A DNA stretch of 64,000 bases. Source: Candidatus Puniceispirillum sp. (GTDB taxonomy: Bacteria; Pseudomonadota; Alphaproteobacteria; Puniceispirillales; Puniceispirillaceae). Shown here piece by piece: positions 610 to 18,205 of the stretch. The notes beneath the pieces were generated by a model. That model was not told the origin of the DNA. It made no database searches and saw only the letters and a list, made by a program, of their open reading frames with translations. Position 1 is the first letter of the stretch; the number at the start of each line of letters is the position of its first letter. A program made the position numbers and the translations under genes. The stretch is from NCBI GenBank assembly GCA_028383305.1, contig JAOEVD010000012.1:1-64000 (forward strand), in the 5' to 3' direction.

Positions 610-1761
610 CTTATCCATCCATTTAGCTTTGACATTCAACGGCTGTCCAAGACCATATCTCTGACCTACTCCAGTCGTTGTCCAGCCACCAATCGCATCA
701 ATGATGTCTGATGGACATTCAACAGCACGAAGCCTGTCCCGCATTGAGTGCCTCAATGAATGTATTACACAGCCCTCTGGCACTCTTGGCTTTAGCCACT
801 TGTTTATGGCTGCTGAAGCAGAGTTGGCATTGCTACTTGAGCCATGATTATATCTGGGGAATAAGAAATTGCTCCCAGATGCAGCCTCAATCCCCCTAGA
901 AGCCGCCCACAGGGCTTCTCCAACCAATGGAACATATCTTCGCTACCTTTGGTCTTAAGCCGTCTCCACGGATGTGGAGTGATATTGATATGGGGTGTTT
1001 CATCATTCAGATGAACATCTTTTACTGATAGCCCAACAGCTTCTCCAAGCCTCATGCCAGTGTCACTTAGTAAGGCTACAAGCCAGCGCATATCATTGTC
1101 CATGTGACGACACTCAGACTGAATGGACCTGATACATTCTGTTGGAATGGGAAGCCTTCTCTGCCTGTCCTCTTCGGGCATGAAGGTACGAGCAAAGGCA
1201 TTGCCGCAATCAAGCCCTTGCTCACTGATGGTTAGGTTGATGATTGACCTGATAGTTGAGAAATTGCGTTTAACTGATGCGATAGATAATCCTCTATCCA
1301 GCATGGCATCACGAAGGGCAGCTGCATCAGAAGATGAATAGCCATCTATGGGGTCTGTCACCCAGATGCTTGATAACAGCATCCACGTTCCGTGATGCAC
1401 CACGGATGAAGGTTTTATCCTTACCAACGCCCTTCAGCTTGATATAGGCATCTCTTGCTTCTGATAGGGTTAAGCCAGACGATAACTGACCATGACCGTT
1501 ACTATCATGCACCAAATGTGCTGCGGGAAGCGGCATTGCACTCAATCTTAACGACAACCAATAATCATGCAGCCGTTGCAGGATGGAATCACACATCCTC
1601 TTTGCACGACTAACTGACTTGGTTTTGAGGCAAATAACTATCCTGTCACGCTTATAATGCTGTCTGACATCGCATGGAACCTGCTTACTAAAATAGTAAA
1701 CACTACGTTTTTGATAGAGATATGAGGCACAAGATTTGTCTACCATATTGTCTACCCACAT
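595..1761 (-). pseudogene. Tyrosine site-specific integrase, two frameshifts
   Basis: Three consecutive minus-strand reading frames together give one full-length tyrosine recombinase. The N-terminal part (from MWVDNMVDK, about 1761-1355) has the SAxLYQKRSVYYF-like start of integrases with a DUF6538-type N-terminus. The middle (about 1350-930) carries the first catalytic Arg in TGMRLGEAVGL. The last part (about 930-595) has HSLRHSMRDRL and GGWTTTGVGQRYG with the nucleophile Tyr. The frame changes at a run of four C (minus strand) near 1350-1353, where dropping one C joins GDRP to IDGYSSSD. It changes again near 930, where one base is missing before VPLVGEALWAAS. Catalytic residues are otherwise intact, so the breakage looks recent, although sequencing error in short runs cannot be excluded. 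The gene starts about 60 bases from the tRNA-Leu fragment, as expected for the integrase of a neighbouring island. Confidence 0.85.
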
Positions 1762-1820
1762 TGACTGCTGCAAATAAAATACTTGCAAATCAATTGAGTA
1801 GTTCAATTGGAACACTAAAG

Positions 1821-1881
1821 ATGGTGCGGGCGGGGAGACTCGAACTCCCACGGCCTAGGGCCCACGGATTTTAAGTCCGTT
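1821..1881 (-). repeat. Left attachment site: 3' fragment of tRNA-Leu(TAA)
   Basis: The stretch matches 14048-14108 base for base except 1858 (g against a at 14085). It contains the 3' CCA, the 3' acceptor strand, the T arm, the variable arm and the anticodon arm up to the start of the anticodon stem. It lacks the D arm and the 5' acceptor strand (the sequence turns into a T run at 1881), so it cannot be a working tRNA. It is the duplicated attachment sequence left by integration into the tRNA gene. Confidence 0.93.
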
Positions 1882-2031: not shown

Positions 2032-3213
2032 ATGCCTGAAATAGAAAAGTTGACCCAAAGGGTCGCCTTTGACCTAGTGCAATCCGGTAAAGCTGGGAAA
2101 TGGGGTGAAAAGAACAATAAGCTCAAATTAAAGGTATATCCTTCGGGTGAGGCTTCGTGGGTGTTTAGGCACGCGGGCAGGGAGACGGTTATCGGGCAAT
2201 TTAGCTCTGTAGATTTAGCACACGCAAAACAGGAAGCGGCATCTATTGAGCTTAAATTGCGTGCGGGCGAGGATCCGATAACCAAAAGGCGACTGGCAAG
2301 GACACAGATCCCCGACGAGCATCTAACCCTTAGGGCTGGGTACAACTTGTTCTGCAAGTTAGAATTGCCCTTAAAAAGTCCAAGGTATCAGCAGGATTAC
2401 ATCCACGAATTTGAAAAATACATATTACCCAAATTTGGAAATAGGCCCTTTTTCGAAATCACCAGAGATGATGTTATTGCGTTTATTGATCCGCATCGGA
2501 TTAAGCGCCCATCCATCGCCAAACGCTTAATCGCGTATTTGTCTCGGCTCTACAACTGGCTAAGCAATCGCCCGGGATTTTCTAGTCACTACAATGATCG
2601 GTTTATAAATCCTGCCAGAAGAGTTGAGAAGCCGATCATAAAGGAGAGATCCGGCTACCTGTTGCCAGAGGAAATGCGACGGATATGGGACGCTTGCGAT
2701 CTTCTGCCTAACCCATACAGCGCAGCCTGTGTTCGTTTGTTGATAATTACGGGCAAAAGGACTGTTGAGGCTCGTGAGATGCGGTCAACGCACCTTGATT
2801 TCCAGAGTAAGGTGTGGACGATACCCAACCCCAAGTCAGGAGACCTTGAGGACAAGGTTCCACTTACCGAACGCGCTTTTGAAATCATATCTGAGATCAA
2901 CAAAAACAATGGGCCTTATGTTTTCAGTTCTAATGGTGGGTTTTCTCCAATCTACACTGACAATAAATTGAAATTGCGCTTGCAGGCTGCATCAGGTGTA
3001 ATTGGCAAACACTGCGGTGAGACGGGTTGGACGTTTCATGATTTTAGGCGCTCTATTAAATCCAGCCTGACAAACCTTGGCTGCCCGCTTTTTGTTTCTG
3101 AAGCGATTCTGGGCCACAAGAATAAGGGGCTTGAGAGGGTTTACAACCTAGCAGATTTGCTGGAACAAAAGCGGCATTGGCTGCTCAAGTGGGAAGAGCA
3201 AATTTTTACCTAG
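2032..3213 (+). CDS. P4-type tyrosine integrase
   Basis: The 393-residue protein catalyses site-specific recombination between the tRNA-Leu attachment sites. The N-terminus (about 1-85) is the DUF4102-like arm-binding domain found in P4 and CP4-57 integrases, with KWGEKNNKLKLKV and a short GQFSSVDLAHAK helix region. The core-binding domain covers about 100-200. The catalytic domain has Arg243 (in TGKRTVEARE), His336 and Arg339 (FHDFRR), His362 (LGHKNKG) and Tyr371 (RVYN), the full R-HxxR-H-Y set. The length is normal for the family. The gene starts 150 bases from the left attachment site and reads inward, as in most tRNA-linked islands. The first ATG follows the third arm-like repeat directly, hinting at autoregulation. 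It appears intact and active. Confidence 0.93.
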   Translation: MPEIEKLTQRVAFDLVQSGKAGKWGEKNNKLKLKVYPSGEASWVFRHAGRETVIGQFSSVDLAHAKQEAASIELKLRAGEDPITKRRLARTQIPDEHLTLRAGYNLFCKLELPLKSPRYQQDYIHEFEKYILPKFGNRPFFEITRDDVIAFIDPHRIKRPSIAKRLIAYLSRLYNWLSNRPGFSSHYNDRFINPARRVEKPIIKERSGYLLPEEMRRIWDACDLLPNPYSAACVRLLIITGKRTVEAREMRSTHLDFQSKVWTIPNPKSGDLEDKVPLTERAFEIISEINKNNGPYVFSSNGGFSPIYTDNKLKLRLQAASGVIGKHCGETGWTFHDFRRSIKSSLTNLGCPLFVSEAILGHKNKGLERVYNLADLLEQKRHWLLKWEEQIFT

Positions 3214-3339: not shown

Positions 3340-3528
3340 ATGCAGGATATCTACTTTACACCAATTCAGGCGGCTGAGTTTTTAGGTGTTTCCAAATACA
3401 CGCTTCAGAACCAGAGAGTTCAGCGGGTTGGGCCACCATTCATCAAAATTCGAAATAGGCTGGTCCGCTACAAGAAAGCGGATTTGATCGCCTATCTTGA
3501 GAAAAATCGCGTTTTGACGGTCGGCTAA
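3340..3528 (+). CDS. AlpA-like excisionase / MerR-type HTH regulator
   Basis: This 62-residue protein is a single helix-turn-helix domain. It has FTPIQAAEFLGVSKYTLQNQR as recognition helices and the PPFIKIRNRLVRYKKADLIAYLEKN wing typical of HTH_17/AlpA proteins. Such proteins in P4-like and satellite elements act as excisionases or as activators of the integrase or replication genes. The gene is followed after one base by the primase-helicase start, so the two are almost certainly co-transcribed and translationally linked. Which of the two roles applies cannot be told from sequence; excision directionality factor is the more likely given the adjacent integrase. Confidence 0.82.
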   Translation: MQDIYFTPIQAAEFLGVSKYTLQNQRVQRVGPPFIKIRNRLVRYKKADLIAYLEKNRVLTVG

Positions 3529-3529
3529 A

Positions 3530-5362
3530 ATGACCGATTACGCTGCTCACATCGAAGAAGTCGCTACTCATTACTGGGGTAAGCCGAACCCGCGCCTATC
3601 CAATGGTACGGAATTACGCTGGGGAAACAACGGCAGTAAATCTGTTTGCCTACAAAAGGGTGTGTGGACGGATTTTGAGAGCGGTGAAACCGGCGGCCTC
3701 GTGGCCTTGGTAAAGGCAAACGAGCCAGCAACCATCAGCGGCAATCTTGCAGATATATTGGAGAGCAAATTTGGCATTGCCAAAAACGAGCAAGCCAAGG
3801 TTTGCTCGACCAAGCGCCAAACACTTGTTAGGCGCTACGACTATCGTGATGCGACCGGATCGCTTGTTTACCAAGTAGAGCGTTATGAAAACCCAAAGAC
3901 ATTTCGTCAGCGCCGCCCGGACGGCAAGGGTGGCTGGATTCCAAACATAAAAGACGTCCAGCCTGTCCTCTATAACCTCCCCGAACTATTGAACAGAACT
4001 GCCGAGCCTATTTACTTGGTTGAGGGCGAGAAAGATGCTGATGCTCTTATGGCAGAGGGCGTTCTTGCGACCACCAACAGCGGTGGAGCCGCCAAATGGG
4101 ACGATAGCCTCACAGAGTCCCTCAGAGGCCGCGAGGTCATCATCCTGCCCGACAATGACGAACCCGGGTTGATACGCGCCCAGCGGCTTCTCAAGGCATT
4201 AACAGGGGTCGCTGCGTCGGTTGAGGCAAAAGATCCATCGGTTTTCCCCGAAAAGGGCGATGTGAGTGATTTTCTGGCCGATAATCATCGTGTTGAGGAA
4301 CTGCATGATTTACCACAACTGCTCATAGATGACTCAGTTTACTCCACCCCTGTTTCCGGGGATGAGTGTTTTCATTTTTTGGGTGCTTCAGATCTGCGCA
4401 ATATGCCACCAATAGAGTGGCTCGTTGGTTGGGAAGAAGAGGGCTTTATTACTGCCCAAGGCCTATCGCTGATTTATGGCGCCCCGGCCACAGGTAAATC
4501 ATTTTTGGCTCTGGATATGGCACTCTCTATCGCAAACGGAGTGCGTTGGCAGGGCGTCCCAGTAAAGCAGGGCAAAGTTCTCTTCGTCGCTGGTGAGGGT
4601 GTAGCCGGTCTTGGAAAGCGTTTGAAGGCTTGGGAGGCGCACCACAAAATCCGTGATACGGGTAATTTTTGCGTGCTTCCAATAGCGGTGAATTTTCGAG
4701 AGCCTTCAGAAGTGGACAAACTAATCCGCTCGATCGAAGCAGCCGATGGTGAATGGGCCTGTGTAGTGATTGACACAGTAGCGCGGTCACTTTCAGGCGG
4801 TGATGAGAATAGCGCAACAGATGCTGGAGTTTGGATCGCCGTAGCTGATCGGGTTAGGCAGTCTCACGGTTGTGCGCTTATAGGGGTTCATCACAGTGGC
4901 AAAGACACCACTAGAGGAATGAGAGGGTCTAGCGCCTTTTTAGGCGGTGTAGATACATCCCTGCTGGTAACCAAGGAACGTGATAGCAGGTTTGTAAAAC
5001 TAAGTTGTGAGAAACAAAAAGATGCCGAATTAGCAGAAGACCAGTTTTTTGAAATGGTTCCGGTTGCGATGCTTCGCGACACTTCCGTTATTTTGAGAAA
5101 AGTTGATGCTGCCGTCGCGGCAGACAAAAAGAAGTCAGTGTCACTTACACCTCAGCAGAGCTTGGCACTTGAGGCGCTTCGATCACTAACCATCGATACG
5201 GAACGTCAGAAGCATCCGTCCGGAGATTGGGCTGAGGCACACAGGGTCAAAGTGCCTGACGAAAAGGCTAATCGACGCGGAGATCACAGAAATGCATTGA
5301 TAACTAAAGGTCTCGTCGCATCCGATCGTAATCTTGTTTGGTTAGTTCATGAAAACAGATAG
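3530..5362 (+). CDS. TOPRIM primase - RepA-type helicase fusion
   Basis: The 610-residue protein joins a primase module to a hexameric RepA-like ATPase. Residues about 1-60 look like a primase zinc/CHC-like N-terminal region (GVWTDFESGETGGLVALV) without obvious metal cysteines. A TOPRIM domain spans about 158-255, with Glu166 in YLVEGEKDADAL and DND at 208-210 (ILPDNDEPG). The helicase part starts near 300 and carries Walker A GAPATGKS at 317-324 and a Walker B-like VVIDTVAR near 410, as in AAA_25/RepA. Similar fusions replicate plasmids, phage satellites and integrative islands independently of host DnaB loading. The gene follows alpA by one base and precedes the palindromic repeats at 5371-5460. 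It is full length and uninterrupted. The replication role is well supported, the start of synthesis less so. Confidence 0.87.
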   Translation: MTDYAAHIEEVATHYWGKPNPRLSNGTELRWGNNGSKSVCLQKGVWTDFESGETGGLVALVKANEPATISGNLADILESKFGIAKNEQAKVCSTKRQTLVRRYDYRDATGSLVYQVERYENPKTFRQRRPDGKGGWIPNIKDVQPVLYNLPELLNRTAEPIYLVEGEKDADALMAEGVLATTNSGGAAKWDDSLTESLRGREVIILPDNDEPGLIRAQRLLKALTGVAASVEAKDPSVFPEKGDVSDFLADNHRVEELHDLPQLLIDDSVYSTPVSGDECFHFLGASDLRNMPPIEWLVGWEEEGFITAQGLSLIYGAPATGKSFLALDMALSIANGVRWQGVPVKQGKVLFVAGEGVAGLGKRLKAWEAHHKIRDTGNFCVLPIAVNFREPSEVDKLIRSIEAADGEWACVVIDTVARSLSGGDENSATDAGVWIAVADRVRQSHGCALIGVHHSGKDTTRGMRGSSAFLGGVDTSLLVTKERDSRFVKLSCEKQKDAELAEDQFFEMVPVAMLRDTSVILRKVDAAVAADKKKSVSLTPQQSLALEALRSLTIDTERQKHPSGDWAEAHRVKVPDEKANRRGDHRNALITKGLVASDRNLVWLVHENR

Positions 5363-5370
5363 TTACATAC

Positions 5371-5460
5371 AGATATCCGAAATACGATCGGATATCCGAT
5401 TGGATGCTTCCGTATATCCGTCCGATCCGATCTCTTTAGAGATCGGGCGGATATTCGGAT
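5371..5460. other. Palindromic repeat cluster, candidate island origin
   Basis: In 90 bases there are four versions of the palindrome cggatatccg: agatatccga (5371-5380), cggatatccg (5390-5399), cgtatatccg (5411-5420) and cggatattcg (5448-5457). A perfect 8-bp hairpin, ccgatctc-ttta-gagatcgg, lies at 5427-5446. The cluster sits between the primase-helicase and a winged-helix gene, the usual place of iteron origins in small replicons. It could instead be an operator array controlling the winged-helix gene. Confidence 0.55.
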
Positions 5461-5499
5461 CCACAAGGATGTGTAGTTTTTGTTTAGTGGAGCGCAATC

Positions 5500-5856
5500 A
5501 TGACTGACGCGCGTCGCTATTCAATTATTCCGATCCGCGCCGTGGGAATGATTACGCGCGGCAGGACTTGGCGAGTATTGGCGGCCCTTTGTGCGCACTG
5601 CTCACCAAGAGGCGTTTGTTACCCCAACCAGTCCACGCTGTCGGAGATGACAGGCATCGATCAAGCGAACGTTTCACGCGCTATTAGAGAGTTATATGAC
5701 CTTGGTTTGCTGAGATACCTGATGCCGATAGGCAAGAAACACCCCAAGGCATTCATGCGCGGCAATCGTTATCAGATTCTTTATGAGCCGCACGCACCTT
5801 TGCCGGATCCGCGAGAAATAGAGCTACCACCCGGTGCGAGAACAAACCGATGGTAA
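5500..5856 (+). CDS. Winged-helix DNA-binding protein, probable replication initiator or regulator
   Basis: The 118-residue protein has a clear HTH_36-type winged helix: RTWRVLAALCAHCSPRGVCYP, then QSTLSEMTGIDQANVSRAI (recognition helix) and RELYDLGLLRYL. This arrangement is shared by plasmid and phage replication initiators and their regulators. It directly follows the palindromic cluster at 5371-5460, which is a natural binding target for it. The C-terminal 30 residues are Pro-rich and probably flexible. It is small for a complete Rep protein, so an initiator accessory or copy-control repressor is equally possible. The fold is confident, the job inferred from context. Confidence 0.75.
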   Translation: MTDARRYSIIPIRAVGMITRGRTWRVLAALCAHCSPRGVCYPNQSTLSEMTGIDQANVSRAIRELYDLGLLRYLMPIGKKHPKAFMRGNRYQILYEPHAPLPDPREIELPPGARTNRW

Positions 5857-6203
5857 CAGCATCAAGAATGTGGGGGTCTGGGGGCTTCACACACATACTC
5901 CCAAACACGCGCTGCCTACGAACCAGCCAGCGCGAAGTCACACCGCCAGTCAGTCATGAGCAGCGGGCTGGTGGTGTGACACCTAACACAGATAACCAAT
6001 CTGTAGGTAGGCCTATGCTGTGCATTAGTTACAGCGGCACAGCTCCATTTGAGTCCCAGTTGAGTCCCTTTTATGAGGGTAGAATCAGCGCCCAAATCTG
6101 CTGCCGCCAGCGCCACAGAAAAGCACCCTTACGCCCCCGGGGGTACGCATCTCTATATGGGGAAGCCAATCAAAATTTTCGAGAAAAATGAAAGGACCCG
6201 AAA
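5857..6203. other. Gene-free stretch with a long inverted repeat
   Basis: I find no convincing gene in these 347 bases. A 13-bp inverted repeat (gtcacaccgccag 5937-5949, ctggtggtgtgac 5968-5980; one G-T pair) would form a strong hairpin with an 18-base loop. It is not followed by a T run on the plus strand, so it is a poor terminator. A 9-base direct repeat ttgagtccc occurs at 6049-6057 and 6060-6068. The next gene has a good ribosome site (aaaggacccgaaa) just before 6204. Confidence 0.5.
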
Positions 6204-7374: not shown

Positions 7375-7537
7375 AATTTCAACTTTATAGTATTTCCCTC
7401 ATTTGACAGCGTTTTGTAAATGAAACAGATAATGTTCTTTGTTTTTTATGTTGGTGTCATTACTTTTACATGGTGTCGTTGCTGTTAATGTCATCGATCT
7501 GTTGCGCCCATTATAAAAATTAGCTTTAGGAAACTGG

Positions 7538-8719
7538 ATGGAAAATTTTAGGCACAATTGGTTGGTGTTGGAGAATGCGATAAAACAACTCAAAAAACAC
7601 AGCCTCAACGTTAACTATTACATTGATGGAAATCATCTTAAGTTGTTTTTAGATAGCATGATTTTTTCTGCGAACAAGGGACATCAGGAAGTTTATCAAT
7701 TTAACGGACTAGGGAAATGTCCATCACTAGATCCCAATAAATCAGTTTATTCAGAATTAATTTTCAAGATTCACAGCCAATTCCTGACGAAAATAAAGCG
7801 TGAAATGTGTCACGAATTCCAGACTGTTTATGGAACAAATTTAGTTGACGAATGGGATTTGTTTCTGTCAATCAAGCCAACTCAGAGACTTAATAACCCA
7901 ACTGAGCTCTTTGAATCTGAACGCTCCCAAAAGTTTGGTTGGGACAAAAACTCCCCTGAATTTCTTGAAATGTCGCCATATTTTAACTTTTTTGTTGGTG
8001 GTGGTGTTGATTTCCAATTCCTTATTAAAACACTCAAGAAATATTGGCGTGATGAAGCAGATCCAAATGCTAGATCCAGAATTGAGCGATTTGTAGAAGA
8101 CTTTGAATCCAGAGACACTGGCGCACGGCCAAAAACAAATGAGTTTTTGAATCAGCAAAAATTTTCTTGGTTTAGAGAAGCCCTTGATGAATTTGACGCA
8201 AATTGGAAAAGTTTAGTCGCTGAGGTCAGCGAGGGACAAACGCGATTTAATATCAAGCCAAAGCAGCATTTTTTTATTGAGTTTCAAGAAAAAGCTGTTG
8301 ATACAAAACTGGTAATGAAGTGTATGGATGATTTGGCTAAAGCAAAAAATGATGACGTTTTTGTTTTCATTACAAACGATACAGATTTTCTTCCATTGTT
8401 CGAGCGTGTTGCAGAAACGCATCAATTAATTTGGTTAACAGGCGCTAAAAATAAATCAAAAGGCCTTAGTGGAGCTGTTGGCAGAGGTAAAATCTTCGAC
8501 TTGGTTGATTTCCTCTCCGGGGAAGGGTTGCACAAAAAAATACCCTCAACCAAATATTGGGACAACGAGGTACTGAAACAGAGTTGTCCGGATATTCAAG
8601 TGTTAAGGGATGATTATCTCGAACAAATGGCGTATGAGGCGTTTCAAAAGCAGCAACAAGAAATATATGAAGACTGGGAGCGAACGGCACGGCTTGAGTG
8701 GGAGAACGACAAATTTTGA
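7538..8719 (+). CDS. NYN (PIN-like) domain nuclease-like protein
   Basis: The 393-residue protein has the split signature of NYN/LabA nucleases. A first acidic strand is NYYIDGNHLK (Asp30), and the second half is VDTKLVMKCMDDLAKAKNDDVFVFITNDTDF, with Asp257-equivalent in VDTK and the TNDTDF motif (Asp281, Asp283) replacing the usual SGDSDF. NYN domains are metal-dependent RNases of the PIN-like superfamily. The two halves lie about 220 residues apart instead of roughly 100, so a large insertion (about 60-230, Lys/Glu/aromatic rich) is present. A charged helical C-terminal tail (about 345-393) follows. The stop overlaps the start of the deoxyribonucleotidase gene. The domain call is good; RNA or DNA target and biological role (defence, regulation) are unknown. 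The gene is AT-rich compared with the chromosome. Confidence 0.78.
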   Translation: MENFRHNWLVLENAIKQLKKHSLNVNYYIDGNHLKLFLDSMIFSANKGHQEVYQFNGLGKCPSLDPNKSVYSELIFKIHSQFLTKIKREMCHEFQTVYGTNLVDEWDLFLSIKPTQRLNNPTELFESERSQKFGWDKNSPEFLEMSPYFNFFVGGGVDFQFLIKTLKKYWRDEADPNARSRIERFVEDFESRDTGARPKTNEFLNQQKFSWFREALDEFDANWKSLVAEVSEGQTRFNIKPKQHFFIEFQEKAVDTKLVMKCMDDLAKAKNDDVFVFITNDTDFLPLFERVAETHQLIWLTGAKNKSKGLSGAVGRGKIFDLVDFLSGEGLHKKIPSTKYWDNEVLKQSCPDIQVLRDDYLEQMAYEAFQKQQQEIYEDWERTARLEWENDKF

Positions 8720-9153
8720 AAACTCTGTATATTGATATGGACAACGTTTTGGTGGACTTTCCCACGGGTATTGCGCGGATTAGTGAAAGCCAAAAGTTGG
8801 AATTTGAAGGGCGCTATGATGAGGTTCCCGGCATCTTTGCTTTGATGGATCCACTCGAGGGATCTATCGAAGCTTTTCATAATTTATCATCCAAATATGA
8901 TACCTACATATTATCCACTGCCCCGTGGGAAAATCATACGGCTTGGAGCGATAAATTAATATGGGTGAAAAGATATCTAGGGAGTCCAGCTTACAAGCGG
9001 TTGATTTTGTCTCATCACAAGAATTTGAATACTGGTGATTATCTTATTGATGACCGGTTGAAAAATGGCGCTGATCGATTTTCTGGAGAGCATATTCACT
9101 TCAAAACTGACAAATTTCCTGATTGGGCGTCAGTTTGCGATTACTTACTTTGA
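8716..9153 (+). CDS. HAD-family 5'(3')-deoxyribonucleotidase
   Basis: The product (about 145 residues from the TTG at 8716) starts MKTLYIDMDNVLVDF, the DxDxV motif I of NT5C-type deoxyribonucleotidases in the HAD superfamily. It has the family motif II-like LSTAPWENHTAWSDKLIWVKRYLG and the motif III/IV-like LILSHHKNLNTGDYLIDDRLKNGA. These enzymes remove the phosphate from deoxynucleoside monophosphates, trimming dNTP pools, and are common in phages and islands. The TTG start overlaps the stop of the NYN gene (ttga), giving tight coupling; a GTG at 8698 is an alternative start. The pairing of a nuclease with a nucleotide phosphatase is notable. Enzyme class is confident, exact substrate not. 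Confidence 0.83.
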   Translation: MKTLYIDMDNVLVDFPTGIARISESQKLEFEGRYDEVPGIFALMDPLEGSIEAFHNLSSKYDTYILSTAPWENHTAWSDKLIWVKRYLGSPAYKRLILSHHKNLNTGDYLIDDRLKNGADRFSGEHIHFKTDKFPDWASVCDYLL

Positions 9154-9184: not shown

Positions 9185-9955
9185 TCACTCATTAGTGTTC
9201 TCAATAATATAATTTATAAACAGTTGTTTATTTCTGTAACTTTCATCTCCGCTTTTTTCTGGAAAAGCAGCCTCATCAAACATCTTTGTGGGAGCGAAAT
9301 TTAACCCCTCAAGCTCGTCACGGCAAACTCCAGAGAACCAAACTCTTTTAGACTTATTCCAACCAATCAGACAATGACGCTCAGCGTCTCTTTTGTAGTA
9401 GAAATAAAAATTTTCTCCATCGTCTAATATTTCCGAATGTCTTAGAATTTGACCATACTTTCCATCCAGCTCTCGCCTCCAAAGATTGTCCGCGAAGATT
9501 TTAGCTTTTGAAAATTTCTCGTCAGATATTTTTTCAGTGGCACTTTTTAGTTTTTCAACATTTAAGCCAACTTTTTTTGCTGTTTCTAATTCTTGTTCCG
9601 ACCAACACTCTGGGGCTGAATTTGTATCTCTGTTATCAGGGTTGATTTTGATTGGTTGATTGGGGTTTCCTACCGACGACAAACTCTCAGGTTCGTTTGA
9701 CGATAGCTTTTGAGCGGCAAGGCTGCACAGCAACCCTGGGACTAAAAAGATCCCCCAGAGCATAAATGCAAAATTACCAATTATTGGTATGTCACCTATT
9801 GGCCGAAGAAAATTTCCCCAAGTTTGAATGATGTCAGGTGTCCTGCTCCAAGATCCTGCGACAAATACCCAAGCTAGGATTATGCAAATAATTCCAATTC
9901 CGGCATAAAGTAGAAGTTTGGATAGTGTTGTGAGGGTGTTTGGGTTTTGGGTCAA
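9185..9955 (-). CDS. Hypothetical membrane protein, island envelope cluster
   Basis: The 256-residue product has two N-terminal membrane helices (about 12-35, LLLYAGIGIICIILAWVFVA, and 57-80, IIGNFAFMLWGIFLVPGLL). A Ser/Asn/Pro-rich linker follows, then a soluble C-terminal domain of about 150 residues with a YFYYKRDAERHCLIGWNKSKRVWFSGVC core. The family is not recognised. The only start after the in-frame stop is a TTG with a weak caggca ribosome site, so the N-terminus is tentative. It is the last gene of the minus-strand cluster, 90 bases after the 10046-11257 gene, and converges on the deoxyribonucleotidase gene with a 31-base gap. The soluble domain probably faces the cytoplasm given the two-helix hairpin. 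Confidence 0.65.
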   Translation of the reverse strand: MTQNPNTLTTLSKLLLYAGIGIICIILAWVFVAGSWSRTPDIIQTWGNFLRPIGDIPIIGNFAFMLWGIFLVPGLLCSLAAQKLSSNEPESLSSVGNPNQPIKINPDNRDTNSAPECWSEQELETAKKVGLNVEKLKSATEKISDEKFSKAKIFADNLWRRELDGKYGQILRHSEILDDGENFYFYYKRDAERHCLIGWNKSKRVWFSGVCRDELEGLNFAPTKMFDEAAFPEKSGDESYRNKQLFINYIIENTNE

Positions 9956-10045: not shown

Positions 10046-11257
10046 TTAATTGGCGGTGGCTGGGCTGCCCTTTCTGAGTAAGCCAAAGAAATATTTAGTA
10101 ACCCGAGACCAACTAACATCTATGCCCTTTGCTCTCATTAAGTTGACAGCAATAAGCACTGAAATTCCAAAAACCCATAAGCTTGGTCCAACTAAACTCA
10201 TTGAGATAATGACTAATGTGGAGGTTACACCGCCCGATCCAAGTGATTTGGCCCACGTTTTAACGCTAAGGTTTCCTTGCCGCCTTTTTTGAAAAGATTT
10301 TGCCAGCCCCACCAGCACAACAATTGCTCCAACAGGATTACCAGCATAGGCGGTGCTTATAGCTAATGCTCCTACGATTCTTGCAAAGCGCTCAGCGTCG
10401 TCACTATTCCAAGAAAACATTAGCGCAAGAGCCGGGATCGCAGATCCAACAACTTCAACCGTGTTATAGCTGAAAAAATCTGCAAAACGTTTCTCATCGA
10501 CGCCAATGGCCGCAAAAGCATCCCTAAATGCCTCAGCTTTTTCTTTCCCAAATTCAATAACCGGAAGGCCAACTACGGACGACATATCGCTCAACAGGGC
10601 TTCCAATGTGCCGTAGACTTCCTGAATGGTCGTGTCGTTTTCCATTGCCTCACGGCCACGCCTAAACGCCTCAGGCAAAGTATGTCCCTCAATTAAACGA
10701 TGCAATGCAGGCCTGATATGGTCTGCGCCTGACTTGAGGCCCTCTACAAACGATCCGTCTATCATTTTGGTATATTCATTGGACAGGGTGTTGAAAGTAT
10801 CTGCAGACCAACTTTCCAAAGATTTGGACACAGAACTTTCTGTCAGAAAATTCATCCAAACCATCGCATTCGCAGATAAATCGTCTTTCGATGGAAGCTT
10901 GGCTTGATAATGCCTGCGGAGTTTTGAGGCGAGTGAGAATTTTTCTGAAGTTTGCTCAGAGCCAATTAAGACTTCGTCAAGTGAGTCGATGGTTGTCTCT
11001 TTTTGTCCGTTGGTGTCACTGTCGTCTTTGTCATCAGGCACAGATGATGATTTCAGAATTTCTTCTGTAAGTTTCTCGGATTTATAACGGGAATATGCGA
11101 TTTCGTGTTGAGTTATCGGGGGGTGGCCATTCACAAAGACATCGATGAAGTGCTTTTCATTGGCAGAACTGGGTTTGACCTCACCAGATTCTAGTTTTTT
11201 GTAGCGCGTGAGGTGCTTGTTTAAGAGCCTCACATCCCACTTTTTTAAAGATGACAT
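10046..11257 (-). CDS. Membrane protein with DUF413-like N-terminus
   Basis: The start at 11257 is chosen because a perfect GGAGG lies 8 bases upstream (11266-11270); the GTG at 11266 would overlap that site. The product is about 403 residues. Residues about 1-55 (LLNKHLTRYKKLESGEVKPS, then HFIDVFVNGHPPITQHEIAY) resemble the short DUF413/MaoP-like module. A charged linker (55-120) and an alpha-helical middle follow. The C-terminal third has two or three hydrophobic segments (VEVVGSAIPALALMF, NPVGAIVVLVGLA, STLVIISMSLVGPSLWVFGI). It is unknown as a whole. It belongs to the minus-strand envelope cluster and directly follows the small membrane protein gene. The resemblance to DUF413 is by eye and should be treated as a hypothesis. 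Confidence 0.66.
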   Translation of the reverse strand: MSSLKKWDVRLLNKHLTRYKKLESGEVKPSSANEKHFIDVFVNGHPPITQHEIAYSRYKSEKLTEEILKSSSVPDDKDDSDTNGQKETTIDSLDEVLIGSEQTSEKFSLASKLRRHYQAKLPSKDDLSANAMVWMNFLTESSVSKSLESWSADTFNTLSNEYTKMIDGSFVEGLKSGADHIRPALHRLIEGHTLPEAFRRGREAMENDTTIQEVYGTLEALLSDMSSVVGLPVIEFGKEKAEAFRDAFAAIGVDEKRFADFFSYNTVEVVGSAIPALALMFSWNSDDAERFARIVGALAISTAYAGNPVGAIVVLVGLAKSFQKRRQGNLSVKTWAKSLGSGGVTSTLVIISMSLVGPSLWVFGISVLIAVNLMRAKGIDVSWSRVTKYFFGLLRKGSPATAN

Positions 11258-11262
11258 TTGGC

Positions 11263-11463
11263 TCACCTCCTGAATAGCCAGAGATAAGCTTTGCGTATGA
11301 ATGCGGCAAAGACAATTACAAAGATTATAGCTAGAGCCTTGACACCAACTACGGCTGCGGCAGGCGCACCAATCAATAGCGCTACTGCAATCAATGAAAC
11401 TATGAAAACAACGCCAATGGGTGTTTTCAAAACTTCAGCTTTTTCAATTAGCCACTTAGTCAT
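11263..11463 (-). CDS. Small two-helix membrane protein
   Basis: The 66-residue protein is mostly membrane-spanning: about 15-33 (PIGVVFIVSLIAVALLIGA) and 40-58 (VGVKALAIIFVIVFAAFI), with basic ends (FIRKAYLWLFRR). No catalytic motif is seen. Small hydrophobic proteins of this kind in islands can be holin-like, toxin-like or subunits of a membrane complex; sequence alone does not decide. It abuts the neighbouring genes without a gap (upstream stop at 11464-11466, its own stop inside the ribosome site of the next gene), so it is co-expressed with the 403-residue membrane protein. Confidence 0.62.
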   Translation of the reverse strand: MTKWLIEKAEVLKTPIGVVFIVSLIAVALLIGAPAAAVVGVKALAIIFVIVFAAFIRKAYLWLFRR

Positions 11464-11904
11464 TCAATATCTTGTCGTCCAATATTTCCACAGGGAAAGT
11501 CCACCATCATTATTGTGAGCAATGAATTTTGCCACTGTGTGGTAACTGCCACCGTTCATCGCCTTATCTTCGAAAATTACCTCAGTAAAATTGCCAAACA
11601 GTGGAGTGACATCAAAGCGATATAGCCAATTGTCGGCAGAAAGCACTTCAACTGAATTTTCAGCAAAAGTAATTTTTTGTCCGCTTGGGCAACAGGCCTC
11701 GAGGAAATCCTTCGGTGATTTATTCGCAAAATCGTATTTGCAACGCTGGCCTAAAGATGATCGTATTTCGCAGATCGGGAACAGGCGCAGTATATTCTTA
11801 TTATTAATTGAGGCGGTATCCGCAAAAGCCGACCAAGCCGCTACAAATAGTATCAGCGCAATCTCAAAAGCGCAGACTAGGAATAGGGTGGCTCGGCTGA
11901 CCAT
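11464..11904 (-). CDS. Secreted/anchored hypothetical protein
   Basis: The 146-residue product has a signal peptide or anchor at residues 5-29 (TLFLVCAFEIALILFVAAWSAFADT, plausible cleavage after AFA). A small extracytoplasmic domain with four Cys (ICEIRSSLGQRCKYDF, LEACCPSG) suggests disulfides. The C-terminal half is strand-rich (LYRFDVTPLFGNFTEVIFED). The family is not recognised. The ATG overlaps the stop of the preceding gene by one base (TAATG), showing an operon. The export signal fits the theme of this cluster, in which most products are membrane or envelope proteins. Confidence 0.65.
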   Translation of the reverse strand: MVSRATLFLVCAFEIALILFVAAWSAFADTASINNKNILRLFPICEIRSSLGQRCKYDFANKSPKDFLEACCPSGQKITFAENSVEVLSADNWLYRFDVTPLFGNFTEVIFEDKAMNGGSYHTVAKFIAHNNDGGLSLWKYWTTRY

Positions 11905-12311
11905 TAAAAAAGCTTCTTTGTTGGATCTAACTTTTGGCAGGTGGCTTTTACATCACCCTTCTCCATTCTTCCATCCTCAAGCGTGATTGAGAGGCTTATC
12001 TTATGCTGGCCTGTCAGGCGATCTATGGAAAAACTCTCCAAAACTCCGCCACTTTCCATTTCGGCAGGCTGCTCGAGATAAATTGTAGTGTCTGTCACGG
12101 CAAGACTTAACCCATTAAAAGTGTTGTTCACTATAGAGATTCGCTCCGAGAACGGGTCACTGTTAGCTGGTAACCAAATGGTCGCTTCAGGCATCTTAAC
12201 TTACGACTCAATTATGCCGTCGCAAATCAGTTCAAGGTTCAGATTTTCTGCCGCAACAGGATGACTAGACAGCGTGAGACATATGGCTGTTGGTAGGATG
12301 AGACGCCTCAT
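11904..12311 (-). pseudogene. Small secreted protein gene interrupted by an in-frame TAA
   Basis: Reading from an ATG at 12311 gives a textbook signal peptide of 36 codons (MRRLILPTAICLTLSSHPVAA, then ENLNLELICDG). It stops at TAA (12203-12201). Two codons later, in the same frame, the ATG at 12194 opens a 96-residue strand-rich domain ending KATCQKLDPTKKLF. The first ATG overlaps the upstream gene's stop (ATGA), whereas the second has only a weak ribosome site, so the ancestral gene surely started at 12311. The whole 135-codon product resembles its upstream neighbour in layout: signal peptide, Cys about 10 residues into the mature protein, and a final V-x-ATC. Either a nonsense mutation killed it, or a signal-less domain is made by reinitiation or readthrough. 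Confidence 0.72.
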
Positions 12312-12730
12312 TGGCTTGGACTGCAAGTGGCCTCAACACCACTAAAAAATGTACTGCCATCGATGAGTCCTGCCATAGCTGCAACAGCATTCAACTTGCC
12401 TATGGATACGGTTACGCCGATGTTTGCGCCATCAATATTTACAATGCCTGATCCAATTTCTGTCGTTTGTGCGCTGCTCCAAGTGAGTGCTTCATGAAAA
12501 ATTTTTTCTTCAACCAAATCAGACTCTGAACCGTCGGTATCAATAACAGATACACCGCCACTGTCTAAAAACTCATATATTGTCCAGCTTTCCTCGTTGG
12601 CTTCAAGAGGAGATGCTTCGCCGCCTACCATCACAACAGTTTGTTCATTCCAATCGCATTTGATCCGTTCTCCTGCCCAAACTGTAGTGTGTGACGCGAT
12701 TATCGTCGCCAGTGTGACTAAAATGCGCAT
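12308..12730 (-). CDS. Small secreted hypothetical protein
   Basis: The start at 12730 gives a clean signal peptide (MRILVTLATIIASHTTVWAGER, cleavage after VWA) and a strong ribosome site (ggagaaag) 6 bases upstream; the longer frame from 12787 adds a polar stretch before the signal and is rejected. The mature protein, about 120 residues, has Cys in IKCDWNEQTVVM and VEATCSPSQ at its ends, likely a disulfide closing a beta-barrel-like domain. The pattern (short signal, Cys near each end, alternating strands) resembles small periplasmic lipocalin-like unknowns of alphaproteobacteria, but no family can be named. It is coupled by ATGA overlap to the interrupted paralogue-like gene downstream. Confidence 0.68.
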   Translation of the reverse strand: MRILVTLATIIASHTTVWAGERIKCDWNEQTVVMVGGEASPLEANEESWTIYEFLDSGGVSVIDTDGSESDLVEEKIFHEALTWSSAQTTEIGSGIVNIDGANIGVTVSIGKLNAVAAMAGLIDGSTFFSGVEATCSPSQ

Positions 12731-12798
12731 TTTAAACTTTCTCCATTTGTGATCCGTATCAGTCACTAAAAATGTCAGAACTAACACGTTGTCAGTAG

Positions 12799-13884
12799 CT
12801 AAATTTTGTTGTCTTTAATTATAGTTTTTAATTGGCTTTGGAGTTCATGTCTGATTGATAGGATTTCGACAATAAATTCAGTTTTGTTTTGAGTGCTTCT
12901 GCATTTTGCAGTGTAACCGTTGTAATCTGGATCATCTTCCTCCATCGCACTTTTGGCAAAGCCGTCTGGTTCATACGAATACGCCAGAGTTTTTCTGTTT
13001 ATCCTGTTGGAGCCGTCGCTATATGTCTGTGTAAACTGAGACAAAGTGGCTTTCGAACTCCAGTGGCTTAAAATGGTATCATTGTCCTGATAAAATCGAA
13101 GGTGGTAAAAGTCTTGCCCCGTTTTCCAAAACCCAAAATATTTGCTTGATGCGTAATAGCTAAAATTCTTCGTCTCTGGCCATTTAACGTTGTCACGAAT
13201 ACACACCAAACCAGTTCCATCCCAAGTCAAGGGGGTTATTGTTTTTGTAATATCGGTCACTTTAAAATGTCGTGCGCTTATAACTGTGAAAGCCTCAGCC
13301 TTTTCTCTGGCTTTTGTGATCGCGTCGTCTGATAAAGCTCTGGCATATGCTTTTGCATACCCTTCTGAGACCATATCACCATTGATAAACGCCACTTGCC
13401 GCCAGACATAACCGTTAAATTTGTCATCAATTTTGCCATAGTACCAAGCCAATCCGACTTGTGCTTGAAGATGCCCGCTTTCAGCAACCTCAGTCCAATA
13501 TTTGATGCCTTTTTCGCGTGCTTTCTCCCTCAGGGGTTTTTCTGAGGCAAAATCCTTTTGGTCTCGTGCCTTTTCCTTAACTTGTTCGGAAAAGTTGCGG
13601 ATTGTCCCGAAAAATCCTCTGACATTTGAGTGACTTTCATTTGTTTTGGGAGATTTTCCTCCAGCGGGGGTGAAAGAAAAGGCAATCAAAGAATATCCTA
13701 AATTGTATTTGTCTTCGTCTGAGCGTGGTGAATTTTTGTAAGTCGCGATTGCTTGCTCAAGCTGATTGGTATCAACAAGTGCCAAATTGCCCAATTCAAG
13801 TGGATCAAGTTTTTTTGGTTCGTCACATGACACAAGTGCCAACGTTAACAGCAAAAACGCCCATTTTTTGTGTGATTTTTTCAC
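12799..13884 (-). CDS. Sel1-repeat-like lipoprotein
   Basis: The 361-residue product starts at a GTG and has a lipoprotein signal: KKWAFLLLTLALVSC with the lipobox LVSC, so the mature protein is acylated at Cys20. Asp at +2 would favour the inner membrane if the E. coli rule holds. Residues about 25-70 and 115-150 look like TPR/Sel1-type helical repeats (GIKYWTEVAESGHLQAQVGLAWYYG). The C-terminal half (about 210-361) is a strand-rich domain of unknown type with two Cys (LVCIRD, AKCRST). Sel1 repeats mediate protein contacts. It is the first gene of the minus-strand cluster, 164 bases from the right attachment site, so its promoter must lie in 13885-14048. No function can be assigned. Confidence 0.72.
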   Translation of the reverse strand: MKKSHKKWAFLLLTLALVSCDEPKKLDPLELGNLALVDTNQLEQAIATYKNSPRSDEDKYNLGYSLIAFSFTPAGGKSPKTNESHSNVRGFFGTIRNFSEQVKEKARDQKDFASEKPLREKAREKGIKYWTEVAESGHLQAQVGLAWYYGKIDDKFNGYVWRQVAFINGDMVSEGYAKAYARALSDDAITKAREKAEAFTVISARHFKVTDITKTITPLTWDGTGLVCIRDNVKWPETKNFSYYASSKYFGFWKTGQDFYHLRFYQDNDTILSHWSSKATLSQFTQTYSDGSNRINRKTLAYSYEPDGFAKSAMEEDDPDYNGYTAKCRSTQNKTEFIVEILSIRHELQSQLKTIIKDNKI

Positions 13885-13959
13885 TATCTACCAACTGCAT
13901 TTTGAACCAGTAGCACACGATGCCATAAAAAAAAGCAGTCGCAAAGAATTTAGAAATTC

Positions 13960-13980
13960 TGGGACGTGATAGGGACGTGT
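13960..13980 (+). repeat. Right-end copies of the arm-site-like repeat
   Basis: tgggacgtga (13960-13969) and agggacgtgt (13971-13980) match the repeats beside the integrase (1985-2026) at 9 of 10 positions or better. They lie 68 bases inside the right attachment site. Matching repeats at both inner ends are what arm-binding integrases use to bring the ends together. Confidence 0.52.
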
Positions 13981-14047
13981 CTTAAAGGAATAGATGGATT
14001 GGATACCAATTTAATTGGCAATATTGTTATAAACCATTGAAAAATAT

Positions 14048-14108
14048 ATGGTGCGGGCGGGGAGACTCGAACTCCCACGGCCTAAGGCCCACGGATTTTA
14101 AGTCCGTT
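14048..14108 (-). repeat. Right attachment site within tRNA-Leu
   Basis: This copy of the 61-bp repeat is continuous with an intact tRNA gene. The match to 1821-1881 ends at 14108, inside the anticodon stem, so the crossover lies somewhere in the 61 bases. The island lies on the 3' side of the tRNA, the usual arrangement that preserves the gene. Confidence 0.92.
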
Positions 14109-14133
14109 ATGTCTACCATTCCATCACGCCCGC
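14049..14133 (-). tRNA. tRNA-Leu (anticodon TAA)
   Basis: Read on the minus strand, the 85-nt gene has 5' acceptor GCGGGCG pairing with CGCCCGC before the discriminator A and an encoded CCA. The anticodon loop is CTTAAAA (anticodon TAA), flanked by the stem ACGGA/TCCGT. A long variable arm typical of class II tRNA-Leu follows, then the T loop GTTCGAGTC. All arms are intact. It is the integration target of the island on its 3' side. Confidence 0.95.
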
Positions 14134-14224
14134 ATGACTGGTCTGTCACAGGTGATAGCCCAGCTAATCCAATGATGCAAAAGGAAAGCGGGGTTTTCTA
14201 CTTAAAAAAATCAAGATGTCTGGT

Positions 14225-14863
14225 TTAGTTGCGAAATGGTGGCGATCCGATAATTGCGTGCAAAAAGCTGGCAGCCGAAGATCGCGCCGATAACAGCCAG
14301 AAACAAGGCTGGTGATCGCCCTCATCGGGGCGGCGGGTGATGATCGCACCGAGATGTTCCATGCTTGCGCGTGCGGTGGTGCCAATCGGCATGGCTGATG
14401 CGCTGCAATCAATCGGGCAAATTCGCGCCAATGTTTGCCGGCTGTAAAAGCCGGACAATGCCAGAATAACCCATGAATCCGATTGATCGGTCATTGCCAT
14501 CTGTTTTGATAGGCTTTTACCAAGCAATGCCTTGGCCGCGTCAATGGGATTGGTGCCATCATCATCAAAACATAAAAACCAATGGTTCTGCGCGCTTGGC
14601 ATTAAGATGCAACGCGGTTTGCCAGACCGGTCAAGTGCCATTGTCGCTTTTGGCTTCGGGCTGCCATTCTTGCCAGTCTTGAATAATTTGGCCATTGCCG
14701 TTTGAAAGGCCGTTTGGCTGCCGGCAAGTGGCGCAACCGACACCATTGACAAGCTAGTGATCTCAATAAGGCTGGTGCCGCCGGTGATCATTTCATAGCC
14801 ACCAAGCGGGCTTTGCGCGGTCAGGCTTGGCGGTGTTTTCGACATAGGTGCAGATTTAGCCAT
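14225..14863 (-). CDS. soxG: Sarcosine oxidase gamma subunit
   Basis: The protein (about 212 residues from the ATG at 14863) is the small gamma subunit of heterotetrameric sarcosine oxidase, which stabilises the alpha-beta core. It begins MAKSAPMSKTPPSLTAQSPLGGY. The C-terminal part has the SoxG/GcvT-like pattern DQSDSWVILALSGFYSRQTLARICPIDC and MEHLGAIITRR. The gene overlaps the end of soxA by 8 bases, so it is translated in coupling with it. It is last in the order soxB-soxD-soxA-soxG. Earlier in-frame starts lie inside soxA and are not needed. Sequence conservation of gamma subunits is low, so the call leans on operon position as well. Confidence 0.85.
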   Translation of the reverse strand: MAKSAPMSKTPPSLTAQSPLGGYEMITGGTSLIEITSLSMVSVAPLAGSQTAFQTAMAKLFKTGKNGSPKPKATMALDRSGKPRCILMPSAQNHWFLCFDDDGTNPIDAAKALLGKSLSKQMAMTDQSDSWVILALSGFYSRQTLARICPIDCSASAMPIGTTARASMEHLGAIITRRPDEGDHQPCFWLLSARSSAASFLHAIIGSPPFRN

Positions 14864-17813
14864 GAAGCCGTGTTCCTTCTGGATCAATAAAATGCGGGCT
14901 GCATAATTCGACCTTAATATCCTGACCGCCAAGCAGATTAACCGCCCTTACAATATCGCCATGACGGCTGTTGCCGCGCCGGATATAGCCAAGCCCGATT
15001 GCGCTTTTTAAATGCGGCGAATAGGCAATGGATGTTACCCAGCCTTCGTCATTTTCCGCAACCGTACTGGCGCCAATACCGATAAAATGCGAACCGGCAA
15101 TCAAGGGCTGATCGGAATTTACCGGTTTGAGGCCGATCAATTCATAATCATCATCACGCACCAATTCAGGGCGGCGGCTTAGCACAAGGCCAATCGAGTC
15201 TTTGCTTTGTGAGACCATCCGGCCAAGCCCCATCTGGCGGGCGGTTGTCTGGCCGTTTAATTCATTGCCAGCAACATGGCCCTTTTCAATCCGCATGACG
15301 CCGAGCGCCTCGGTGCCATAGGGGGTGACGCCAAATTCTTCACCAGCCGTCATAAGCGCACGAATCATTGCATCGCCATAGCGGGATGGAACGGCGATTT
15401 CAAACGCAAGCTCGCCGGAAAATGAAATGCGGAAAAGCCGCGCTTTTACACCGCCGCAAATGCTGATCTCGCCGCAAGCCATAAAGGGAAAGGCTTCGTT
15501 CGAGATATCTTCACCCGAATCAATCAGCTTTTCCAAAAGGTGGCGAGCATTGGGGCCAGCAACCGCATATTGGGCATATTGTTCGGTGATCGAAATCAAT
15601 TGAACATCAAGCTCGGGCCACAGGCATTGGCGGCAGAATTCAAGATGTCTGAACACGCCAACCGCATTTGCCGTTGTTGTGGTCATGACATAATGCGTCT
15701 CGCCAAGCCGTGCGGTAGTGCCGTCATCCATCACCATCCCATCTTCACGAAGCATCAGGCCATAACGGGTTTTCCCAATCGGCAGTTTGGCAAATCCATT
15801 GGCATAGACATAATTTAAAAACGCTGCCGCATCATGACCCTGAATATCGATTTTGCCAAGCGTGGTGACATCGCAAATGCCAACCGATGCCCGCGTTGCC
15901 AAAACTTCGCGGTCAACCGATTGACGCCATTCAGTTTCGCCTGTTTTGGGGTACCATTGAGCGCGAAGCCATGCACCTGTTTCAACAAAAACAGCACCCT
16001 TAGCGCTGGCCCATTTATGCGATGGTGTTAGGCGGGTAGGGCGGAAATCTTTGCCACGGCTGCGTCCGGCAAAGGCGGCAATTGGCACTGGCGTATAGGG
16101 TGGGCGAAAAATTGTTGTTCCAGTTTCGGCGATGGTTTTGCCTGAAATATCGGCAAGAATGGCCAAACCAGGGATATTGGCAATTTTGCCCTGATCGGTT
16201 GCCATGCCGAGTGTGGTGTAGCGTTTTAGATGTTCAACCGACCGAAAGCCTTCGCGGTGCGATTGCTTGATATCTTTAACCCCAACATCATTCTGGAAAT
16301 CAACAAAGGCCTTTTTATCACTGCCTTTGACATGCCAGAACGGTTGGATGGCAAAGCTTTCATCAGCGGCGCGTGGCGGTTTGATCACCGCGGGTTTAAA
16401 GCCTAAATCGTGCGCCGCCTGCTGGCCTGCCTTGAGGCCGCTTTGCAAACAGCTGGCAAGGGTCATAACTCCATTTGCCGCGCCGGTCACGATCATGCCA
16501 TCAGGCAGATTACCGCCCGGAACAAATCCGGCAATCGCATCATTCCAAACCGGATGGCCGCGCTGATGGCAGGTTAGATGAACCGTTGGCGACCAGCCGC
16601 CAGAAACAGCCAGACAATCGGCCGGAATATGCGTTCCGTTATTCAATGTCACGCTGCGAAGGCCAAGCCGTCCGGTGGTGTTGACGATTTGTCCGCCAAG
16701 AACGGTTGGCACGCCTGTTGGCGGGGTTTTGGCAATGTCGGTTCGGCTGTCGATAATGGCGGTAACTTCAACGCCTGCAGCGTGCAAATCCTGCGCGGTT
16801 GCCCAGCCATCATCATTATTGGTGAAAATGGCAACGCGTTTGCCCGGGGCAACGCCAAACCGATTAACATAAGTTCGCACCGCACCGGCAAGCATGACAC
16901 CCGGCCGGTCATTATTGCTAAAGGCAATTGGCCGTTCGGTCGCGCCTGCGGCCAAAATGCATCTTTGGCTGCGGATGTGCCAAAAAATTTGGCGAATGGA
17001 ACCATTGGCATTATGTTCGTTCACACGTTCCAGCGCGCCATAACAACCATGGTCAAAAGCACCAAATATTGTTGTCTTGGACATGATGCGAACATTATCC
17101 ATCGCCGCAAGCTTGGCCAGAGATGACTCGGCAAAAGAGGCGCTTTCCATACCGTCGATTTCCTGGCGTTCGGCATTTAAGCGGCCGCCAAGACAAAAAT
17201 CTTCATCAGCAAGAATGATTTGCAAGCCTGATTTGGCCGCCGCAAGCGCCGCCATTAACCCGCTTGGCCCGCTGCCAATGACTAATAAATCGCAATGGAG
17301 ATAGCCCTTATCATATTGATCAGGGTCGGCAAGGCCAGAAAGACTGCCAAGACCGGCGGCCTTTCTTATGATAGGTTCATAAATCTTTTCCCAGAATGCC
17401 GCAGGCCACATAAAAGTCTTGTAGTAAAAGCCAGCACCAAGTAATGGCGACAAAAAATCATTGACCGCCATAAGATCAAACGACAAAAGCCCCATTTTTG
17501 TTTGGCTTTTCGCACTTATCCCGTCAAAAAGCTCGGCTGTTGTTGCGCGGCTATTCGGGTCTTGATGAGCGCCATCACCGATTGTCACCAGTGCGCTCGG
17601 TTCTTCAGATCCAGCGGTTAAAATGCCCCGTGGCCGGTGATATTTGAAACTGCGCCCGACAAGCCGCACATTGTTGGCAAGTAATGCCGATGCCAACGTA
17701 TCACCGGCAAAGCCGGTATAATGTTGCCCGTCAAAACGAAAGCCAAGTGGCTGGTTGCGATCAACAAGCCCGCCGGTGATCCGGTTTTTTTGTGAAAGGC
17801 TTGCCGCACTCAT
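14856..17813 (-). CDS. soxA: Sarcosine oxidase alpha subunit
   Basis: The 985-residue flavoprotein subunit oxidatively demethylates sarcosine to glycine, channelling formaldehyde to tetrahydrofolate. An N-terminal 2Fe-2S-like domain (about 17-85, QPLGFRFDGQHYTGFAGDTL) lacks the cluster cysteines, as in other SoxA proteins. An NAD/FAD-binding domain has LLVIGSGPSGLMAAL at about 177-190, and a second nucleotide-binding part contains GATERPIAFSNNDRPGVM. The C-terminal half (about 600-985) is a GcvT-like folate domain (FAKLPIGKTRYGLMLREDG, MRIEKGH). The length matches the family. The start overlaps the soxD stop by ATGA. It acts in the cytoplasm in one-carbon metabolism of methylated amines, a common substrate for marine heterotrophs. 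Confidence 0.96.
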   Translation of the reverse strand: MSAASLSQKNRITGGLVDRNQPLGFRFDGQHYTGFAGDTLASALLANNVRLVGRSFKYHRPRGILTAGSEEPSALVTIGDGAHQDPNSRATTAELFDGISAKSQTKMGLLSFDLMAVNDFLSPLLGAGFYYKTFMWPAAFWEKIYEPIIRKAAGLGSLSGLADPDQYDKGYLHCDLLVIGSGPSGLMAALAAAKSGLQIILADEDFCLGGRLNAERQEIDGMESASFAESSLAKLAAMDNVRIMSKTTIFGAFDHGCYGALERVNEHNANGSIRQIFWHIRSQRCILAAGATERPIAFSNNDRPGVMLAGAVRTYVNRFGVAPGKRVAIFTNNDDGWATAQDLHAAGVEVTAIIDSRTDIAKTPPTGVPTVLGGQIVNTTGRLGLRSVTLNNGTHIPADCLAVSGGWSPTVHLTCHQRGHPVWNDAIAGFVPGGNLPDGMIVTGAANGVMTLASCLQSGLKAGQQAAHDLGFKPAVIKPPRAADESFAIQPFWHVKGSDKKAFVDFQNDVGVKDIKQSHREGFRSVEHLKRYTTLGMATDQGKIANIPGLAILADISGKTIAETGTTIFRPPYTPVPIAAFAGRSRGKDFRPTRLTPSHKWASAKGAVFVETGAWLRAQWYPKTGETEWRQSVDREVLATRASVGICDVTTLGKIDIQGHDAAAFLNYVYANGFAKLPIGKTRYGLMLREDGMVMDDGTTARLGETHYVMTTTTANAVGVFRHLEFCRQCLWPELDVQLISITEQYAQYAVAGPNARHLLEKLIDSGEDISNEAFPFMACGEISICGGVKARLFRISFSGELAFEIAVPSRYGDAMIRALMTAGEEFGVTPYGTEALGVMRIEKGHVAGNELNGQTTARQMGLGRMVSQSKDSIGLVLSRRPELVRDDDYELIGLKPVNSDQPLIAGSHFIGIGASTVAENDEGWVTSIAYSPHLKSAIGLGYIRRGNSRHGDIVRAVNLLGGQDIKVELCSPHFIDPEGTRLHG

Positions 17814-18175: not shown

Positions 18176-18205
18176 GGTTGTTGATGTTCGTCCTTGGGCT
18201 CTTGG

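Follow-up and report, generated by a model that had tools for sequence, protein, structure and literature searches.

Why should a gene for a predicted nuclease run straight into a gene for a predicted nucleotide phosphatase? The window, by which we mean the whole stretch of 64,000 nucleotides analysed here, comes from a SAR116 (Puniceispirillales) genome and carries a gene for a NYN-domain protein, overlapped by one for a HAD 5'(3')-deoxyribonucleotidase, as cargo of a mobile island (Table 1). In our reading, the two genes probably represent one of the pairings, in a slot for defence genes, of a dNMP phosphatase with a nuclease that can be exchanged. Taken as a whole, the best explanation is that they are cargo of an integrative island and form an operon with translational coupling, in which the nuclease would attack phage or element nucleic acid and the phosphatase would block the recycling of dNMPs; we give this joint reading a probability of about 0.48, slightly short of even.

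The gene structure is established. Both open reading frames lie where the preliminary description had placed them, and the overlap it had reported is there: the TGA stop of the NYN gene (8717-8719) and the TTG start of the HAD gene (8716-8718) interlock in the sequence TTGA, an overlap of 4 nt. AGGAAA stands at 7528-7533, 5' of the NYN ATG, and GGGAG at 8700-8704, 5' of the HAD start. The TTG is supported as start codon because a homologue in genome G050, 83% identical, has the same length of 145 residues and begins with MKTLYIDMDNV, and because the next in-frame ATG would cut off Asp7. Between 7200 and 9400, three promoter-like sites were found against a mean of 5.7 in shuffled sequences, which is no excess, and three terminator-like sites against a mean of 1.9.

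Table 1. Genes and attachment sites of the island in the window.
Feature	Position	Strand	Remarks
Left attachment repeat	1821..1881	.	61 nt, 98% identical to 3' part of tRNA-Leu gene
Tyrosine integrase	2032..3213	+	PF00589, PF13356
AlpA-like excisionase/HTH protein	3340..3528	+	HTH_17; the name AlpA is an interpretation
Toprim/AAA_25 primase-helicase	3530..5362	+	Pfam; 44-46% identical over full length to the G020 island primase
Winged-HTH replication-initiation (O-like) protein	5500..5856	+	Family match
NYN-domain protein	7538..8719	+	393 aa, ATG start; Pfam
HAD 5'(3')-deoxyribonucleotidase (predicted)	8716..9153	+	145 aa, TTG start; Pfam, model
256-aa cargo protein	9185..9955	-	Without family; convergent with HAD gene
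406-aa cargo protein	10046..11266	-	Weak DUF413-like N-terminus
Right attachment repeat	14048..14108	.	Inside tRNA-Leu gene
tRNA-Leu (anticodon TAA), integration target	14049..14133	-	Rfam

The island is equally well established. It measures 12.2 kb, is bounded by 61-nt repeats that are 98% identical and is integrated at tRNA-Leu. Its genes follow one another in the order integrase, HTH_17 protein, primase-helicase and O-like protein, then the NYN-HAD pair, then convergent genes without family; integrase, AlpA-like gene, primase and the duplicated tRNA attachment site mark it as a satellite-like integrative island. No gene for hijacking a helper phage, as in PICI or P4-like satellites, was recognised in the island, most of whose cargo ORFs have no family. 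Rfam found only tRNA in the window, and the island DNA had no near match among plasmids. The pair stands out by its composition: GC is 0.380 in the NYN gene and 0.404 in the HAD gene, as compared with 0.510 in the island primase and a minimum of 0.461 in the right flank (1182-nt windows), so that both genes are poorer in GC than any of these and appear to be later cargo of the island. Directly left of the left attachment repeat lies a second, broken tyrosine-integrase-like frame (595-1851, minus strand), which suggests that an older element once sat at the same tRNA-Leu site and that the site is a tandem insertion hotspot.

The island belongs to a family that carries defence genes. The nearest primase outside the own genome is encoded in a complete genome of the SAR116 order (G020), where it belongs to an island of 21.7 kb that lies at tRNA-Pro and contains a type I Zorya system (ZorABCD at 11183-18805 of locus L091; ZorA 5e-83, ZorB 1e-85, ZorC 3e-58, ZorD 0). 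The integrases of the two islands are just 23% identical, which indicates that their common part is the replication module. G020 gave neither a NYN nor a HAD match when the 136 genomes of the order were searched.

The phosphatase is the better characterized half of the pair. It matches the Pfam family NT5C (PF06941) with an E-value of 3e-13 and 50.4 bits (cut-off 24.8), and its AlphaFold2 model, built from 25 sequences, reaches a pLDDT of 96.3. The model superimposes on the Staphylococcus epidermidis deoxyribonucleotidase-like protein 3bwv with Z 17.9 and an rmsd of 2.6 over 140 residues, and on the human 5'(3')-deoxyribonucleotidases of cytosol and mitochondria with Z 16.5-17.4 (17.4 for 4yih); its matches to 5'(3')-deoxyribonucleotidases together span Z 16.3-17.9, and other HADs stay at Z 11.5 or less. 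Asp7 and Asp9 are invariant in 10/10 and 25/25 aligned homologues, as are K102, D112 and D113 in the larger set. Membership in the 5'(3')-deoxyribonucleotidase family, as first suggested, is thus upheld. With the human enzymes cdN and mdN and with 3bwv, the protein has in common the fold over the whole model, the catalytic Asp pair and the STAP, Lys and DD motifs; it differs in its length (145 aa, as against about 190 aa in the human enzymes), and in being encoded in mobile elements beside nucleases. Its activity is predicted from sequence and model, and on this footing we regard the assignment as a putative dNMP phosphatase as sound.

The nuclease is a more unusual protein. Its NYN domain was recognised by Pfam (PF01936) with an E-value of 8.8e-7 and 30 bits (cut-off 24.2) over residues 236-307, and all acidic motifs are present, with four Asp residues predicted to be catalytic: YIDGN (Asp30), EKAVD (Asp255) and TNDTDF (Asp281, Asp283). 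The large insertion and the variant motif of the preliminary description were borne out as well. Asp30 and Asp281 are 251 residues apart, as compared with 89 in 14 of the 16 measurable distant homologues, which belong to another NYN subfamily (31 distant loci were examined, and 15 gave no reading); TNDTDF stands where these homologues have TSDSDF, SSDSDF or SSDADF. Compared with LabA-like proteins, with which it has the IDGN and T-N-D-T-D-F motifs and a Pfam score above the cut-off in common, it is longer by about 160 residues from one acidic motif to the other and has no close relative save one fragment. A long C-terminal helical tail would be a further difference, for which the structure model is weak evidence: it was built from two sequences only and, because its pLDDT is 41.5, was kept out of claims on the fold. 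The assignment as a predicted nuclease is sound at the level of sequence; the protein would be a metal-dependent nuclease of PIN-like fold, the long insertion of which probably carries target recognition or control. PADLOC returned no convincing match for either protein (NYN, a weak E-value of 0.005 over 33 residues; HAD, none).

How widespread is the pair? The NYN protein is present in 2/151 relatives and 2/136 genomes of the order, with the own genome counted in both. The other copy, in genome G063, is a decayed C-terminal fragment of 137 aa that lies directly behind an integrase and has no adjacent HAD gene. No NYN homologue was found in the phages, plasmids or viral contigs searched. The DNA pattern for TNDTDFxPL, which is blind to relatives with a different motif, occurred in two stretches of viral DNA, neither with a NYN relative by tblastn, and in 19 stretches of genomes, where the sole relative was locus L041 on the same contig as the G063 fragment. 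Weaker matches from searches of the class and phylum were discarded: they mainly covered the core and, where read, were ordinary LabA-like proteins. A NYN gene stood beside HAD at no other HAD locus inspected. Co-occurrence of the exact pair in other genomes was not found; since the lone other NYN copy lacks HAD, the two genes do not form a conserved system in the data searched.

And what about the phosphatase by itself? Its homologues are present in 6/136 genomes of the order, in 7/398 of those sampled in the phylum and in 1/240 of those sampled in the class, each count including the own genome; they were also found in 10/72,556 plasmid records and, with an alignment as query, at 36 loci in viral contigs. 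We inspected the neighbours at 51 HAD loci, 26 of them at 60% identity or more and 25 below that value. After four loci of the first group without upstream sequence and three from KVP40-type phages were set aside, 19 were scored. In 11 of the 19, the gene or cassette directly upstream of HAD is one for a nuclease or for restriction: the NYN gene in the window; a type I MTase behind HsdR and HsdS at three loci (L079, L082 and L085; the class rests on a PADLOC run on L085, to which the other two are 97-98% identical); a type I REase at three (L080, L081, L084); an REase followed by a YgjP metallopeptidase at L106; a GIY-YIG protein of the PD-T4-3 type in two SAR116 genomes (L089 in G131, 2e-33; L090 in G124, 1.5e-34); and, at L121, an HNH-like ORF of 109 aa that was read by eye and had no library match. 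The remaining eight have no nuclease directly upstream (L086, L087, L088, L107, L108, L109, L123, L124). Here, a small HD_4 phosphohydrolase-like gene adjoins HAD at L086 and L087 (G050 and G045), a WYL regulator precedes it at L109, and at L107 a DUF2779/Cas4-like gene lies 261 nt downstream on the opposite strand. In the three annotated KVP40-type records inspected, HAD instead precedes gp47, an SbcD-like nuclease subunit, whose gene it overlaps or abuts. Below 60% identity, the sole locus with annotated neighbours (L112) gave no family for the neighbour.

The strongest single result is the comparison of four type I cassettes. In one type of mobile element (L079-L085, L106), the HAD proteins are 94-99% identical, and the DNA flanking HAD on its downstream side is 74-94% identical, depending on the piece aligned. 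The cassette upstream, by contrast, falls into four type I classes that are dissimilar to one another: their restriction subunits are about 21-32% identical over most aligned stretches (47% in one stretch of 40 residues). This indicates that HAD stays constant whereas the nuclease varies. The 11 positives amount to few independent events, namely this single type of element with its several cassettes, the two sister loci in SAR116 and the locus in the window. HAD may be a useful partner for many nucleases, as its close coupling argues: its start overlaps the upstream stop by 4 nt in both the window and L080, and it follows the upstream gene by 0 and 2 nt in L089 and L090. Alternatively, it may be no more than a fixed gene at the edge of a cargo slot, a reading favoured by the fact that most positives come from one type of element.

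The idea of a defence or pool-control unit has thus held in part: HAD homologues do recur behind unrelated defence nucleases, and a sister island encodes Zorya, but the exact pair was seen nowhere else. As HAD relatives elsewhere stand behind several virus-restricting nucleases, we see in the pair a probable version of a defence cassette that cuts and discards. In such a cassette, the nuclease would attack the nucleic acid of an invading phage or a competing element, and HAD would dephosphorylate deoxynucleoside monophosphates, turning the freed dNMPs into deoxynucleosides and so keeping them out of the dNTPs needed for replication. HAD would be the constant, portable half and NYN one of the exchangeable nucleases, alongside type I restriction enzymes and GIY-YIG proteins. 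We infer an antiviral activity of the pair from this arrangement. The weak point of this preferred reading is the substrate: NYN proteins are usually described as RNases, and an RNase would supply no dNMPs, a poor fit with a deoxyribonucleotidase; type I enzymes by themselves do not release dNMPs either. A further counterpoint is that the NYN-HAD combination was seen in the window alone and that eight of the 19 scored HAD loci have no nuclease directly upstream.

The reading that comes closest to the defence reading, ranked below it as a serious but less probable explanation, is that HAD is a phage-derived nucleotide-metabolism gene that travels on many mobile elements; adjacency to nucleases would reflect shared cargo slots, and NYN would be an unrelated neighbour. 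HAD homologues occur in 88/50,697 phage records, among them KVP40-type phages with 66% identity. The type I element family that keeps HAD while its slot varies, the 8/19 loci without a directly upstream nuclease and the HD_4 neighbour in G050 and G045 also fit. The gene spacing described above, with stop/start overlaps in the window and L080 and distances of 0-2 nt in L089 and L090, is however typical of coupled operons, and partner nucleases unrelated to one another turn up repeatedly, in no fewer than three genomic backgrounds.

Improbable, in our view, is a role within the island itself, with NYN as an RNase that controls island replication or maintenance, or as an island toxin, and HAD offsetting nucleotide stress during excision. 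NYN proteins are predicted RNases according to a family title in the reference list of PMC10853773, the NYN gene adjoins the island replication module, and an integrase likewise adjoins the sole other NYN copy; against this, the G020 sister island with its homologous primase has neither gene, and the pair, to judge from its low GC, joined the cargo later. More improbable still is a defence against base-modified phages, in which the nuclease would cut DNA with modified bases and HAD would remove modified dNMPs before phosphorylation: PD-T4-3 degrades 5hmC-type DNA according to PMC12923530, and in G131 and G124 its relatives are separated from the HAD homologue behind them by 0-2 nt, but no link to modified bases is known for the type I partners, and KVP40-type phages themselves encode HAD. 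A toxin-antitoxin pair is disfavoured, as neither protein resembles an antitoxin.

Finally, we would like to place the defence reading into the context of known systems. PD-T4-3, type I restriction, Zorya and deoxyribonucleotidases are all already known. PD-T4-3, a GIY-YIG type IV restriction enzyme, differs from NYN in its nuclease fold; in two SAR116 genomes, a relative of it takes the upstream position next to members of this HAD clade. The excerpts of PMC12923530 and PMC12409345 describe it as a single-gene system. The chemistry has a precedent in Dmp of phage T5, a phosphatase that prevents the recycling of host dNTPs as stated in an excerpt of PMC12265719. Like Dmp acting alongside host DNA breakdown, the predicted HAD would be a dNMP phosphatase that blocks nucleotide recycling; Dmp is, however, encoded by a lytic phage, and the likeness drawn here is one of described function. 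With the dGTPase and dCTP-deaminase systems and Clover, the pair would have in common an action on the DNA precursor pool. These act on dNTPs, whereas the HAD family acts on monophosphates and, unlike dNTP-depleting defences, would need a nuclease or turnover as a source of dNMPs.

As a rule, restriction enzymes are regarded as working by themselves. A HAD gene recurring directly behind several unrelated nucleases would link DNA cutting to nucleotide depletion, and such a link would account for the fate of the DNA debris. The furthest-reaching version, a portable 'restrict and drain' module of a small deoxyribonucleotidase and interchangeable nucleases of unrelated folds, in which removal of dNMPs makes the destruction of invader DNA irreversible, we consider unlikely; if true, the NYN-HAD pair in the window would be an undescribed version of it. 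In the open-licence literature, no paper was recognisable as describing a NYN-HAD pair or a link between HAD and restriction, which is weak evidence of novelty because open-licence papers alone were covered.

Two further observations concern HAD homologues elsewhere. At L089 and L090, genes for DUF2779/Cas4-like nucleases lie near those for the PD-T4-3-like protein and the deoxyribonucleotidase. The deoxyribonucleotidase at L109 (G609, 4992-5879), which adjoins the WYL-domain regulator, carries a C-terminal extension of about 150 aa and reaches 295 aa in total.
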